Shown here piece after piece: positions 4,777 through 63,887 of a DNA stretch of 64,000 nt. Source of the stretch: Methanofervidicoccus sp. A16. GTDB taxonomy: Archaea > AGJL01 > Methanococci > Methanococcales > Methanococcaceae. The stretch is taken from assembly GCF_003351865.1 (NCBI RefSeq), contig NZ_CP022242.1, positions 806,001 through 870,000 on the forward strand, given 5' to 3'. The translations under genes were made by a program, and so were the position numbers. Below the pieces are notes generated by a model that had not been told where the DNA came from, searched no databases, and saw only the letters and a list, made by a program, of their open reading frames with translations. How positions within the stretch are numbered: the first letter of the stretch is position 1; each line of letters starts with the position of its first letter.

Positions 4777-5142
4777 ACCTTAGTTCCCACCAAGTGTGAT
4801 TAAAAGAATAATAAAAAGATAATAAATTGTTATAATAAAAATCATAATGAAAATAACCAATATAAAAATCATTAAATATCCTAAGATCTTTCCGGAACCC
4901 TTAGTTAAGATAGAAGATCTTATGATCTTATTCTGAATTCCTATATTAGAAAATCTTCAAAGGATCATTCTCCTCCAATCTCCTTTTTAAATTTTATATT
5001 TGATAATGATAGAAGTTAGAAGTTTTTTTATTTTTTAAACATTTTTATTTTATTATTTATTTTTAAATTTTCTTTTTTATCATAATTATTTTTTTATAAT
5101 TCTTATTATTTTTTAAACTATCCTTTTGATGGGAACTAGGGT
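4777..5142 (+). repeat. F1 repeat element, 366 bp, with 9-bp flanking direct repeat
   Basis: Left end ACCTTAGTTCCCACCA, right end TGATGGGAACTAGGGT. The core at about 4890-4990 contains GATCTTTCCGGAA, TTATTCTGAATTCC, AAAGGATCATTCTCCTCC. The base run TTTATTTAT occurs directly before the element (4768-4776) and directly after it (5143-5151), as expected for a 9-bp target-site duplication, although the sequence is AT-rich. It lies between convergent-side ends of argD upstream DNA and flaJ. Confidence 0.75.
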
Positions 5143-20423: not shown

Positions 20424-21023
20424 ACCTTAATTCTCATTAAAGTAATGATTTAAATAATAAAAATAATAAAAAAGACTGGAAAAAACCTTAGTTCCCATCA
20501 GTAGTGATTAAAAGAACTATGAAAAAATGAAAAAATAATAATAATTGTTATAATAAAAATCATGATTAAAATAATCAGTATAAAATCTATATAAAAATAA
20601 AAACTATTAAATACCCTTAGGATCTTTCCGAATCTTTAGATAATATTATGAGATCTTACTCTGAATCCCTGTATTAGATAGTATTCGGAGGGTTATTCTC
20701 CTTCAATCTTCTTTTTAAAATACTATATCTGAGATAATAGAAGTTTCTGTTTTTTAAACATTTTCTTTATTTTTTATTTTTATTAATCTATTATTTTTTA
20801 TAATTATTTTTATTATTCTTTAAACTACTCTTTTGATGGGAATTAGGGTTACTTTTAATAAAAATTAATAATAGTTAGCCTGTTAGAAAGGATCCACTCC
20901 ACTTCTATAGTATCTTAGAGCATTCCAGAAGAGACTATTTATCTCTCTTATTAATACCTTCTTTTTATACGTTTATTATAATTATTGTTATTTTTATTAG
21001 AATTTTTTAATGGGAATTAAGGT
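20424..21023 (+). repeat. F2 repeat element interrupted by an F1 element
   Basis: The left F2 end ACCTTAATTCTCATTAAAG is at 20424, the F2 core (GGATCCACTCCACTTCTATAG, then TATCTTAGAGCATTCCAG) is at about 20890-20935, and the right end TTTTAATGGGAATTAAGGT stops at 21023. Removing the inner F1 copy (20485-20849) leaves about 235 bp, the F2 size. About 25 bp of F2 present in other copies is missing at the junction. Confidence 0.72.
20485..20849 (+). repeat. F1 repeat element nested in F2, 365 bp
   Basis: Ends ACCTTAGTTCCCATCA and TTGATGGGAATTAGGGT. The core has GGATCTTTCCGAATC, TCTTACTCTGAATCCC and ATTCGGAGGGTTATTCTCC. In this copy the hairpin arms differ from other copies by a change that still allows a G-T pair. 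Its left junction (GACTGGAAAA then ACC) matches the junction near 53766, where the same arrangement occurs inverted. Confidence 0.75.
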
Positions 21024-52836: not shown

Positions 52837-53187
52837 ACCTTAGTTCCCATCAAGATTGTAATTAGAAGAATAATAATAAAAATAATTATTATGATAAAAA
52901 TAATAAAAATCTTAAGAGGAATAACAATAAAATAATTCTGAAGGGATAAGAATAAAAAAGTTAAATAACCTTAAATCCATCAAAGTAACGATTTAAATAA
53001 TAAAAAAGACTGAAAAAAATGATTAAAATTAATGCTATCTATTAAGAAGAATCTATTTCACTTCCATAGCATCTTAGAGCATTCCAGGAAATTATCTTTT
53101 GTTCTGGATTTTAATACCTTCTTTTTATACGTTTATTTTTTATAATTATTATTGTTTTTATCAGAATTTTTTGATGGGAATTGGAGT
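52837..53187 (+). repeat. F3-F2 composite element
   Basis: The F3 arm (ACCTTAGTTCCCATCAAGAT to about 52967) runs into an F2 copy (52968-53187) that starts with a weak end ACCTTAAATCCATCAAAG. The F2 core AATCTATTTCACTTCCATAG and CATCTTAGAGCATTCCAGG is at 53045-53090, and the right end TTGATGGGAATTGGAGT. The same composite is at 63481-63887 (plus) and 48808-49130 (minus), so it behaves as one unit. Confidence 0.65.
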
Positions 53188-53504: not shown

Positions 53505-53766
53505 ACCCTAGTTCTCATCAAAAGGATAATTTAGAGAATAATAAAAATAATTATAAAAATAATAAAAATAAAGAAAATGTTTAAAAAACAGAAAATTTTA
53601 AAAAAAAAGATTGGAGGAGAATGATCCTCTGAATACCTTTTAATACAGGGATTCAGAATAAGATCTCCTATATTATCCAAGGGTTCAGAAAGATCCTAAG
53701 GATATCTAATATTTTTATATTGGTTATTTTCATTCTTCTTTTAATCACTACTTAGTGGGAACTAAG
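53505..53766 (-). repeat. F1 repeat element, minus orientation
   Basis: The left end ACCCTAGTTCTCATCA and right end TTAGTGGGAACTAAG enclose the reversed F1 core: GGAGGAGAATGATCCTCTGA, then CAGGGATTCAGAATAAGATC, then GGGTTCAGAAAGATCC. In this copy the hairpin arms TCTGAATACC and GGGATTCAGA, flanked by GATC on both sides, are almost perfect. Confidence 0.72.
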
Positions 53767-54029
53767 TTTTTTATAGTCTTTTTTATTATTTTTATTATTT
53801 AAATCGTTACTTTAGTGGGAATTAAGGTATTAAAATATTATTAAAATATAATACTTTTAACAAAATTAATAATAGCAACCTGCTAAGAAGGATCTGCTCC
53901 ACTTCTCCATAGTGTCTTAGAGCGTCCCAGGAGGTGATTATTTATCTCTTATTTTGATTTTAATACCATCTTTTTATACTTTTATTATAATTATTATTCT
54001 TATCAGAATTTTTTGATGGAAATTGGGGT
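53767..54029 (+). repeat. F2 element with its left end inverted
   Basis: Bases 53767-53828 are the F2 left arm in reverse orientation (ending TAGTGGGAATTAAGGT). Bases 53829-54029 then give the remainder of F2 in forward orientation, with core GGATCTGCTCCACTTCTCC and GTGTCTTAGAGCGTCCCAGG and end TTGATGGAAATTGGGGT. This shows rearrangement inside a nested cluster. Confidence 0.6.
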
Positions 54030-54263
54030 AAATATATTATAAAAATAATAAAAAGAATTTAAAATAAAAACTTCTATTATCCTAGATACAAAATTTTAAA
54101 ATGAAGATTGGAGGGGAATGATCTCCTGTATATCTTTTAATACAGGAATTCAGAATATGATTCCTTAATCTTACCTAAGTGTTCAAAAAGATCCTAAGGA
54201 TATATTTAATGATTTTTATATTGATTTATTATTCTTTTAATCACTACTGATGGGAACTAAGGT
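54030..54263 (-). repeat. F1 element remainder, minus orientation
   Basis: Starts with AAATATATTATAAAAATAAT, the same junction sequence that follows F2 at 59897, and contains the reversed F1 core (GATTGGAGGGGAATGATCTCC, AATTCAGAATATGATTCC) and the end CTGATGGGAACTAAGGT. Its other end was lost or lies across the rearranged F2. Confidence 0.6.
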
Positions 54264-58559: not shown

Positions 58560-59417
58560 ATGCAATATATAAATGACAGGATGATTAAACCTGTGATAAT
58601 CGGAGGATTTATTATGGGGGTGTTAGTATTTATTCTTCGATGGATAGAAGGAGATCGTTATTACTATATTCTCTATATTTTATCTGGTATCATCACAGCC
58701 CATCTACTAACTCAGGAGTATCTTTCAAGGGATAGGGACTATCTAATATCTGGGGTATTAAGTGGGGGTGTTGCAGGATTTGTCAGTTGGTTGTTGATAA
58801 CTGTATATTATGTATTGGATGCCCTTGTACATGAGAGGTTGCCTATCTACTCCAGTTTAATGGATTTTGTATTATTTGTCATTTTCCTCTTAATATACTC
58901 TCTTACTCCTTTACTACTAGGTGTTACTTTTGGAACTATCGGAGCAATACTTTATAGGATAGTAGAAGGAATAATAAAAAATAAAAAAGATGGAATGGCT
59001 AAAGCTGTACTTATTGGAGGAGTTGTCGGCGGAGTACTGCTCTCTATTTTTACTATAGGATTGTTAGAGTGTTACTGTCTTCTCTGTATTCTCCCTGGTG
59101 TCATCACAGCTCATTTAATGACTGAAGAAAAAAAAGGATTTAATCAAACTGATAAAGACTATATAATATCTGGGGGTTTTAGTGGTTGTATTGCAGGACT
59201 TATCAATTGGGGGCTAGATACGTTGATAATTCTCATAGATGGAATTTTATCGATGGCTAATTACCGTAGTCCTGATGAAATAAGTATGGAAATAGCAATA
59301 GCAACAGATTGGCTCATGATGAACATCCCTCTATATATATTAATAGGTGCCATTTCTGGATCTATTGGAAGTATACTCTACAAAAAAGTAAGGAGTAAAA
59401 TCATTATTAAAAAATAA
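58560..59417 (+). CDS. Two-repeat glycine-rich membrane protein
   Basis: 285 residues, all hydrophobic helices with glycine zippers. Residues 1-138 and 143-285 are two copies of one module: VIIGGFIMGVLVF / VLIGGVVGGVLLS, LYILSGIITAHLLTQEYL / CILPGVITAHLMTEE, then DYLISGVLSGGVAGFVSWLL / DYIISGGFSGCIAGLINWGL and a final GTIGAILYR / GSIGSILYK. The single-module homologue is at 61077. The pattern resembles small archaeal DUF5518-like membrane proteins; function unknown. The start follows AGGT. Confidence 0.72.
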   Translation: MQYINDRMIKPVIIGGFIMGVLVFILRWIEGDRYYYILYILSGIITAHLLTQEYLSRDRDYLISGVLSGGVAGFVSWLLITVYYVLDALVHERLPIYSSLMDFVLFVIFLLIYSLTPLLLGVTFGTIGAILYRIVEGIIKNKKDGMAKAVLIGGVVGGVLLSIFTIGLLECYCLLCILPGVITAHLMTEEKKGFNQTDKDYIISGGFSGCIAGLINWGLDTLIILIDGILSMANYRSPDEISMEIAIATDWLMMNIPLYILIGAISGSIGSILYKKVRSKIIIKK

Positions 59418-59590: not shown

Positions 59591-60182
59591 ACCTAGTTCC
59601 CATCAAAAGGATGGTTTAAAGAATAATAAAAATATATACCTTAATTCCCATCAAAGTAATGATTTAAATAAAAAAATAATAAAAACTGAAAAAATATTAA
59701 AATATTATTAAAATATAACACTTTTAACAAAATTAATAATAGCAACCTGCTAAGAAGGATCTGCTCCACTTCTCCATAGTGTCTTAGAGCGCCCCAGGAG
59801 GAGATTATTTATCTCTTATTTTGATTTTAATACCCTTCTTTTTATACTTTTATTAATTATTATTCTTATCAGAATTTTTTTGATGGGAATTAGGGTAAAT
59901 ATATAATAAAAATAATAAATAAGAAAATGTTTAAAAACAGAAAACTTCTATTATTCCAGATACAGCATTTTAAAAAGAAGATGAAGAAGAATGATCCTCT
60001 GATACCTTCTAATACATGAATTCAGAATAAGATCTCCTATCTTATCTAAGTGATTGGAAAGATCCTAGGAATGTTTAATAGTTTTTATATGATTTTATAC
60101 TGATCATTTTAATCATGATTTTTAATTATAATGATTATCATTTTCATCGTTCTTTTAATCACTACTTGGTGGGAACTAAGAT
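59591..60182 (-). repeat. F1 repeat element interrupted by F2, minus orientation
   Basis: The outer ends are ACCTAGTTCCCATCAAAAGG (59591) and TTGGTGGGAACTAAGAT (60182). The F1 sequence breaks at AAATATAT and resumes after the inner F2 copy (59638-59896). The reversed core GAAGAATGATCCTCTGATACC, GAATTCAGAATAAGATC and GATTGGAAAGATCC lies at 59985-60070. Without the F2 insert the element is about 325 bp. Confidence 0.75.
59638..59896 (+). repeat. F2 repeat element inserted in F1, with 8-bp duplication
   Basis: Ends ACCTTAATTCCCATCAAAG and TTTTGATGGGAATTAGGGT. The core GGATCTGCTCCACTTCTCC and GTGTCTTAGAGCGCCCCAGG lies at 59755-59800. AAATATAT occurs immediately before (59630-59637) and immediately after (59897-59904), an exact 8-bp direct repeat within the host F1 copy. 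The element is 259 bp. Confidence 0.8.
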
Positions 60183-60227: not shown

Positions 60228-60240
60228 AAAATATATAAAG
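60228..60240 (+). promoter_or_regulatory. TATA box of transaldolase
   Basis: AAAATATATAAAG lies about 45 bp upstream of the GTG start, with an A-rich BRE-like preceding segment. Confidence 0.5.
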
Positions 60241-60281: not shown

Positions 60282-60938
60282 GTGAAATTTTTCTTAGATA
60301 CTGCAAACGTTGAGAAGATAAGAGAGTTTGCCGAATTAGGTATAGTAGATGGTGTTACAACAAATCCAACACTCATTGCAAAAGAGGGAAGAGATTTCCA
60401 AGAGGTAGTTAAAGAGATATGCTCCATAGTAAAGGGCCCTGTAAGTGTAGAGGTAACTGCCTTAGATACTGAAGGTATGGTTAAAGAGGCTAGAGAACTA
60501 TCAAAACTTGCAGATAACATAGTAATTAAGATACCTATGACTAAAGAAGGTATAAAGGCTGTAAACATCCTATCAAAAGAGGGCATAAAAACCAACGTTA
60601 CCCTAGTATTCTCTGCAAATCAGGCTCTAATTGCGGCAAAGGCTGGGGCAACTTACGTCTCTCCCTTTGTAGGTAGGTTAGACGACAACGGACAGGAAGG
60701 TATGGAGTTAATAAGAGAGATAGTAACTATATTCAAGAACTACGATATAGAAACGGAAATTATCGTGGCATCTATCAGGCATCCACGTCATGTAATCGAG
60801 GCTGCAAAACTTGGAGCCCATATAGCTACCATACCATTCCAGGTGTTGGAGAAGATGTTCCACCACCCATTAACAGATAAAGGTATAGAAATTTTCAAGA
60901 GGGACTGGGAGAACTATTTAAAAAATAGAAGTAAATAA
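60282..60938 (+). CDS. tal: Transaldolase (short form)
   Basis: 218 residues, the short MipB/TalC-like transaldolase. The Schiff-base lysine is K83 in [12 protein letters not shown]; other signatures are [30 protein letters not shown] and [16 protein letters not shown]. The enzyme interconverts sugar phosphates, giving pentoses for nucleotide synthesis. The start is GTG 60282. It is followed 138 bases later by a membrane-protein gene, a pair that exists a second time in decayed form at 58.45-59.4 kb. Confidence 0.93.
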
Positions 60939-61076: not shown

Positions 61077-61514
61077 ATGGGATATATAAGAGATGAGATG
61101 GTTAAACCTATTCTCATTGGAGGAATTATTGGAGGGGTGTTATCTTCTATCCCAATAATATCGTGTTTAAATTGCTGCTGTCTTCTCTACATTCTATCTG
61201 GTGCTATTACCGCTTATTTAATGAGTAAAGAATTTGATCCAAGTGACACTGAATACCTGATAGCTGGAGCACTTAGTGGAGGTATTGCAGGGGTTATCAA
61301 TTGGTTGTTAGGAATGTTAATAAATATTTTGATATATGGAGTAATGGTTCCATTTATAGGGGAGTACTATCCTACTGAACTACATATGGAGATGATGGGA
61401 GCAATGGGTTCCTCTCTGGTAATATCTATGCTTTATATCCCACTATATATAATAATAGGTGCTATCTTTGGAAGTATTGGGGGATTACTCTACGAGAAAT
61501 TGGGGAACAAATGA
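61077..61514 (+). CDS. Single-module glycine-rich membrane protein
   Basis: 145 residues with four to five hydrophobic segments. PILIGGIIGGVLSS, CCCLLYILSGAITAYLMSKEF, EYLIAGALSGGIAGVINWLL and IIGAIFGSIGGLLYEKL match both halves of the protein at 58560. Cysteines cluster at residues 30-35 (LNCCCLL). The gene overlaps the next one by four bases (ATGA), indicating translational coupling. Function unknown. Confidence 0.75.
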   Translation: MGYIRDEMVKPILIGGIIGGVLSSIPIISCLNCCCLLYILSGAITAYLMSKEFDPSDTEYLIAGALSGGIAGVINWLLGMLINILIYGVMVPFIGEYYPTELHMEMMGAMGSSLVISMLYIPLYIIIGAIFGSIGGLLYEKLGNK

Positions 61515-63480: not shown

Positions 63481-63887
63481 ATCTTAGTTCCCATCGAGAT
63501 GGTGATTAGAAGAATAATAAAAAAATAATTATTATAATAAAAAATAATAAAAATCTTAAGAGTAATAACAATAAAATAATTCTGAAGGGATAAGAATAAA
63601 AAAGTTAAATAACCTTAAATCCATCAAAGTAAGATTTAAATAATAAAAATAAAGAATAATAAAAAAGGACTAAGAAAGTATTAATAATAAAAATATAATA
63701 TCTAATAATCTAACAAAATTAATAATACCCAGCCTGTGAGGAAGGATCTGCTCCACTTTCATAGAGTATCTTAGAGTATCCCAGGAGAAATTATTTATCT
63801 CTTATTTTGATTTTATACCTTCTTTTTATGTTCTTTTATTTTTTATAATTATTATTCTTATCAGAATTTTTTGATGGAAATTAGAGT
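63481..63887 (+). repeat. F3-F2 composite element
   Basis: F3 arm from ATCTTAGTTCCCATCGAGAT to 63611, then F2 from ACCTTAAATCCATCAAAG (63612) with core GGATCTGCTCCACTTTCATAG and GTATCTTAGAGTATCCCAGG, ending TTGATGGAAATTAGAGT. The junction and the TTCTGAAGGGATAAGAATAA segment are the same as at 52837-53187. Confidence 0.65.

Follow-up and report, generated by a model that had tools for sequence, protein, structure and literature searches.

Within the window, by which we mean the whole 64,000-nucleotide stretch of Methanofervidicoccus sp. A16 DNA analysed here, an F1 repeat is interrupted by a second repeat, F2. Did F2 reach this position by transposition and, if so, which enzyme would have moved it? 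The interrupted F1 element, a MITE on the plus strand, occupies 59591-60182 and has the termini ACCTAGTTCCCATCA and GGTGGGAACTAAGAT. Its left terminal repeat (59591-59606, plus strand) carries a 1-nt deletion versus the consensus ACCCTAGTTCCCATCA, while the right one (60167-60182, minus strand) is ATCTTAGTTCCCACCA. Inside it lies the 259-bp F2 element, likewise a MITE on the plus strand (59638-59896; ACCTTAATTCCC...GGGAATTAGGGT), whose left terminal repeat, ACCTTAATTCCCATCA (59638-59653, plus strand), matches ACCYTAVTTCCCAYCA exactly and whose right terminal repeat, ACCCTAATTCCCATCA (59881-59896, minus strand), forms its other terminus. A copy of the octamer AAATATAT abuts F2 on either side, at 59630-59637 and 59897-59904 of the plus strand, exactly where the first-pass annotation had placed the two. 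Its further claim that excision of F2 with one octamer restores a continuous F1 is borne out as well: what remains is a 325-bp element for which the genome offers dozens of uninterrupted counterparts that align with it through the junction, its right arm being matched by 40 scored genomic candidates. No duplication is seen at the outer flanks of this F1.

About 40 copies of F2 are present in the genome. The element has a conserved, G+C-richer core (59735-59815; CCTGCTAAGAAGGATCTGCTCCAC...CGCCCCAGGAGGAGAT), the rest of it being AT-rich. Folded as single-stranded DNA the whole element scores z = -4.0, and an Rfam search of window positions 53-61 kb, F2 included, returned no family at the gathering threshold.

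The octamer could be a chance repeat in AT-rich DNA, with F2 just a neighbour or a component of a larger F1-F2 repeat. Such a reading gains from the abundance of AAATATAT in the window, where 26 occurrences are observed and 17.9 expected, and from its absence from uninterrupted F1 copies, in none of whose 54 alignments spanning the insertion point is it found. Those 54 alignments reveal a single AT-rich site, AAATAATTAT or similar, the consensus being one T off the target. The solo-F1 site type AAATAATTATAAAAATAAT also differs by one T from AAATATATTATAAAAATAAT, as inferred from the flanks of a composite at 60.2 kb in the genome. The first-pass annotation had predicted a single AAATATAT-like site in uninterrupted F1 and had held that, were the octamer missing there, the repeat would be coincidence. 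The prediction stands loosely, one AT-rich site being present, but fails letter for letter; octamer identity is too strict a criterion for a drifting AT-rich stretch. The octamer is indeed missing from the uninterrupted copies, but coincidence is excluded by the statistics of the family as a whole.

For these, ends of the ACCYTAVTTCCCAYCA form were taken from sampled loci, the flanks of facing pairs 120-1200 bp apart were compared, and expected repeat counts were obtained by re-pairing the flanks of distant elements. Re-pairing of this kind puts the chance probability of an exact 8-bp match flanking two element ends at about 0.0023. Exact direct repeats of 8-11 bp nevertheless flank 39 of the 201 end pairs, against about 0.9 expected. 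By length, 18, 11, 7 and 3 pairs have repeats of 8, 9, 10 and 11 bp, respectively, where 0.46, 0.12, 0.22 and 0.07 would be expected, while repeats of 6-7 bp show only a slight excess. The duplication thus has a modal length of 8 bp, is mostly of 8-10 bp and reaches 11 bp three times, and a target duplication of 8-11 bp is therefore a property of the family. Near full-length solo copies, 43 of F1 and 30 of F2, also speak against a chance repeat within a larger unit: since each element stands alone in dozens of copies, the combined F1-F2 form is secondary. We consider the chance reading extremely improbable. F2, a transposing element, has inserted itself into F1 and left the octamer as its target-site duplication. 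The junction is, however, not the best proof of F2 mobility that it had been taken for, since less ambiguous duplications accompany insertions elsewhere, for example ATTCTTAG, CAATATCT, TTCTATACA and AAAAAGAAT.

F1 and F2 share their terminal 16 bp, ACCYTAVTTCCCAYCA, and differ in their interiors. With up to one mismatch allowed, this terminus is matched 383 times in the 1.504-Mb genome, compared with once for a reversed-pattern control, which implies about 190 elements; at 300 bp each these would by our estimate take up some 4% of the genome. Both repeats have the traits of MITEs. They are short (259 bp for F2, about 325-340 bp for F1) and contain no listed open reading frame of 100 or more amino acids, they are flanked by target-site duplications at the frequency given above, and the terminal inverted repeats ACCYTAVTTCCCAYCA are shared with transposase-bearing elements of related genomes. 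F1 is mobile too, and comparison of flanks shows a solo F1 at 4777-5142 of the window (minus strand) with an exact 9-bp target duplication, TTTATTTAT. As F1 has the same terminal repeat as F2, one transposase family would have served both.

A search with the IS982 transposase model (NF033520) over 30 related genomes points to the identity of that family. In three relatives, G020, G006 and G014, IS982 transposase genes lie between termini within one mismatch of ACCYTAVTTCCCAYCA. G020 has two 987-bp elements with the ends ACCTTAGTTCCCATCA and ACCATAGTTCCCATCA, one of them with an exact 8-bp duplication, TAATTATC, and in the congener G006 a 942-bp element is bounded on both sides by the 7-bp sequence TTAAATT. 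The transposase copies in G020 and G006 are broken, while G014 has open copies, one of which, a protein of 240 residues, matches the model at 3.7e-37 and 128.2 bits, narrowly below the NCBIfam cut-off of 130. The genome of A16 itself yielded a relic of about 70 amino acids at 218135-218344 as its sole transposase trace, and no transposase of family PF01609. This decayed relic is probably all that remains of the parent element here. It ends (positions 1350-1737 of locus L150) at a matching terminus, ACCCTAGTTCTCATTA, which lies on the minus strand at position 1724 of that locus. The genome appears to lack an active transposase at present and, with nothing but the relic found, F1 and F2 appear to be stranded.

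The shared terminus, together with the IS982-family transposases found between such termini in relatives, identifies F1 and F2 as IS982-derived MITEs. Ends of IS982 elements begin with AC and their direct repeats measure 2-10 bp (PMC7335449). The ends of F1 and F2 likewise begin with AC, and when set against the published consensus AC(N)6T(N)5TT (PMC7335449) they match at AC and at T9, whereas the final TT is CA. Duplications are of 7-8 bp in the IS copies of relatives and of 8-11 bp here, compared with the published 2-10 bp. IS982 members are known from Methanotorris formicicus and Methanocaldococcus bathoardescens, and the archaeal branch of the family includes ISPfu3 and ISTli1 (PMC7335449), both of which are listed with 2-bp duplications (PMC7335449). 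Unlike the family proper, F1 and F2 have no transposase and agree with the end consensus only in part, and they resemble the IS982 ends of relatives over the terminal 16-18 bp only, no internal homology being seen by eye. They are, then, derivatives of IS982 rather than members of it, lacking a transposase of their own, and are best described as IS982-type MITEs whose transposase appears to have gone from the genome.

A mechanism can be proposed on this basis. An IS982-type transposase acting in trans would recognise ACCYTAVTTCCCAYCA, the 16-bp end common to both elements, and, by excising or copying F2, bring it into an AT-rich part of an F1 copy, some 45 bp in from that copy's left end. Repair of the staggered cut would there duplicate 8 bp, AAATATAT. 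The same transposase would also move F1 and several F1/F2 composites or hybrids, each with its own duplication of 8-11 bp. We hold it very likely that this is how F2 entered F1 and how F1, the composites and the hybrids moved, although mobilisation in trans is here deduced from sequence. Any two ends of the ACCYTAVTTCCCAYCA type seem able to work together.

Nesting is common in this genome. Two positions of F1 harbour F2 insertions, which occur in both orientations, and the converse, F1 within F2, is likewise seen in either orientation; in the window, an inverted F1 is inserted inside an F2 at 20424-21023 (plus strand). Around F1 position 45, an oppositely oriented F2 with the duplication AATAAAAATA(A) is found at 16.5 and 1151.8 kb in the genome; this AT stretch of F1 was there struck independently. 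What we call type-B composites have F2 inverted at about F1 position 240, with the junction TTTTATATTGA. Several hybrids with one F1 end and one F2 end are bounded by exact duplications, for instance at 1408023-1408432 (CAATATCT) and 924553-925022 (TCAATATT). A third type of end, 'F3' (ACCYTAGTTCCCATCAAGATTGTGA), is paired with an F2-type end in hybrids at 52837-53187 and 63481-63887 of the window, with exact duplications of 8-9 bp, and further hybrids of this sort, also with exact 8-9-bp duplications, lie at 1028795-1029095 and 1295767-1296277 of the genome.

The F2/AAATATAT junction is present at four genome loci, at 60.2, 450, 859.8 and 865.6 kb, the last being the copy discussed so far, which raises the question of whether F2 entered F1 there once or several times. 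At 450 and 859.8 kb the AAATATAT junction is found on the right side of F2; the latter locus is a second F1/F2 composite in the window (53505-54263, plus strand; genome 859505-860263). This composite and the one at 449766-450573 are rearranged, of the form F1-F2-F1 with an inverted F2 start, and are 88-100% identical until about 60 bp past F2, beyond which identity falls to 43-75%. No solo F1 has the octamer and the F2 copies of the four loci group tightly, joined by just a single further copy, so that a single origin is likely: the four junctions are probably one insertion, not four. As evidence of transposition the junction in the window accordingly retains part of the value first assigned to it, in that F2 did move once into F1, but the window copy, being one of four such loci, does not by itself count as an independent insertion.

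How one insertion came to occupy four places can be approached through the divergence of its parts. Among the four loci F2 is 93-97% identical, compared with a background mean of 68%, while the F1 arms show differences of 15-30%. For three of the four loci the first 58 bp of F1 past F2 are 98-100% identical, a level that none of 630 solo F1 pairs reaches over the same part, and beyond about 58 bp the F1 sequences return to the background of 70-83% (Fisher p 4e-5 to 1e-3). All of this is what would be seen had the F2 insertion, after a single transposition, spread among dispersed F1 copies by gene conversion or template switching, the window copy perhaps being a recipient; the block of about 600 bp common to the 450- and 859.8-kb loci, with the same kind of end, fits as well. 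The window copy, however, has F2 and the octamer in common with the other three without sharing the 58-bp flank, so that no tract boundary is visible there. The ends of the three tracts, moreover, nearly coincide, contrary to what one would expect of random conversion, and a tree that places the four F1 arms in one clade is not rejected (p-AU 0.74). On balance we lean slightly towards spread by conversion or template switching, a reading that bears on how the copies were distributed and does not conflict with their ultimate origin by transposition.

That an F1::F2 composite moved whole to each of the four loci finds support in outer duplications: an exact 9 bp, AATTATATT, around the 611-bp composite at 60.2 kb, TTATTAAAG around the 808-bp composite at 450 kb, and, in a further composite at 1322195-1322817, 11-bp duplications both outside and inside. 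It was the 60.2-kb duplication that suggested joint transposition of the AAATATAT composites to us, and we dropped the idea because divergence is much greater in their F1 arms than in their F2 copies. Joint transposition would leave the F1 arms as alike as F2, so that recombinational copying fits better, and an outer duplication may stem from the older host F1; jumping as a unit is improbable. Nor do we favour the AT stretch as a hot spot that took up F2 in the window copy independently of the other three, at an identical F1 position. The oppositely oriented F2 in that very stretch at 16.5 and 1151.8 kb would accord with a hot spot, as would the window F1 arm, which derives from another F1 lineage, but the agreement in nucleotide, orientation and octamer, the last absent from solo F1, and the tight grouping of the F2 copies make it fairly improbable. 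The type-B composites, in which no near/far gradient is seen and F1 and F2 are both at background divergence, neither support nor refute recombinational spread; for them, such equal divergence of arms and insert would accord with movement as a unit. Spread of the insertion by recombination between F1 copies seems to have played at least some part. Whether homologous recombination copied the insertion and its target duplication together between dispersed repeats, so as to yield seemingly 'fresh' duplications without local transposition, is a more tentative matter, for which we would put the chances a little short of even.

IS982-derived MITEs are a known kind of element, of which the present genome is an unusually rich and interleaved case. 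MITECca01 of Cardinium is an IS982-derived MITE of about 240 bp, with 169 copies making up 3.5% of the genome (PMC9769881). The elements described here are alike in derivation and size and, at about 190 elements and an estimated 4% or so of the genome, in abundance, a likeness of origin, size and number rather than one established by sequence comparison. MITECca01, however, has a bacterial host with intact copies of the parent IS, and few of its copies are disrupted by other elements, whereas here nesting is common. TIMEs of Pseudomonas are mosaic, non-autonomous elements of the Tn3 family with 5-bp duplications that have been captured experimentally (PMC4133298). They too are small, transposase-less elements that join into larger mobile composites, but belong with Tn3 and not IS982, and F1 and F2 are known from sequence only. 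Three features stand out in the present case: an apparent loss of the transposase, dense nesting, and what seems to be mosaic spread. In methanogens, MITEs and IS982 elements have been little studied, and the repeats now gain a parent family and a mechanism: about 190 IS982-type MITEs in a 1.5-Mb archaeal genome with no surviving transposase. They also counsel caution: an exact target duplication within a repeat may be reproduced by mosaic copying and so need not mark an insertion of its own. Recombinational copying, if true, would mean that insertions can multiply where the parent enzyme has been lost and no active transposase is at work.

The age of the insertions can be viewed against the closest congeners by transaldolase identity, G001 (95%) and G004 (93%). 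F1 with F2 lies just upstream of the transaldolase promoter in this lineage only, as compared with G001 and G004, in both of which F1 and F2 are absent upstream of the orthologous gene while the TATA-like promoter, AAAAATATATAA, is kept. F2 itself is present in G001, which makes the family older than the species. A third AAATATAT, at 60229-60236, falls within this conserved promoter, which belongs to the transaldolase gene at 60282-60938; some 45 bp upstream of it the F1/F2 composite comes to an end. The transaldolase gene is flanked at 58560-59417 and 61077-61514 of the window by paralogous genes for small membrane-protein-like products, with 51% identity where they match. Of the two, the upstream one matches DUF5518, and the pair lies near transaldolase in several congeners too.
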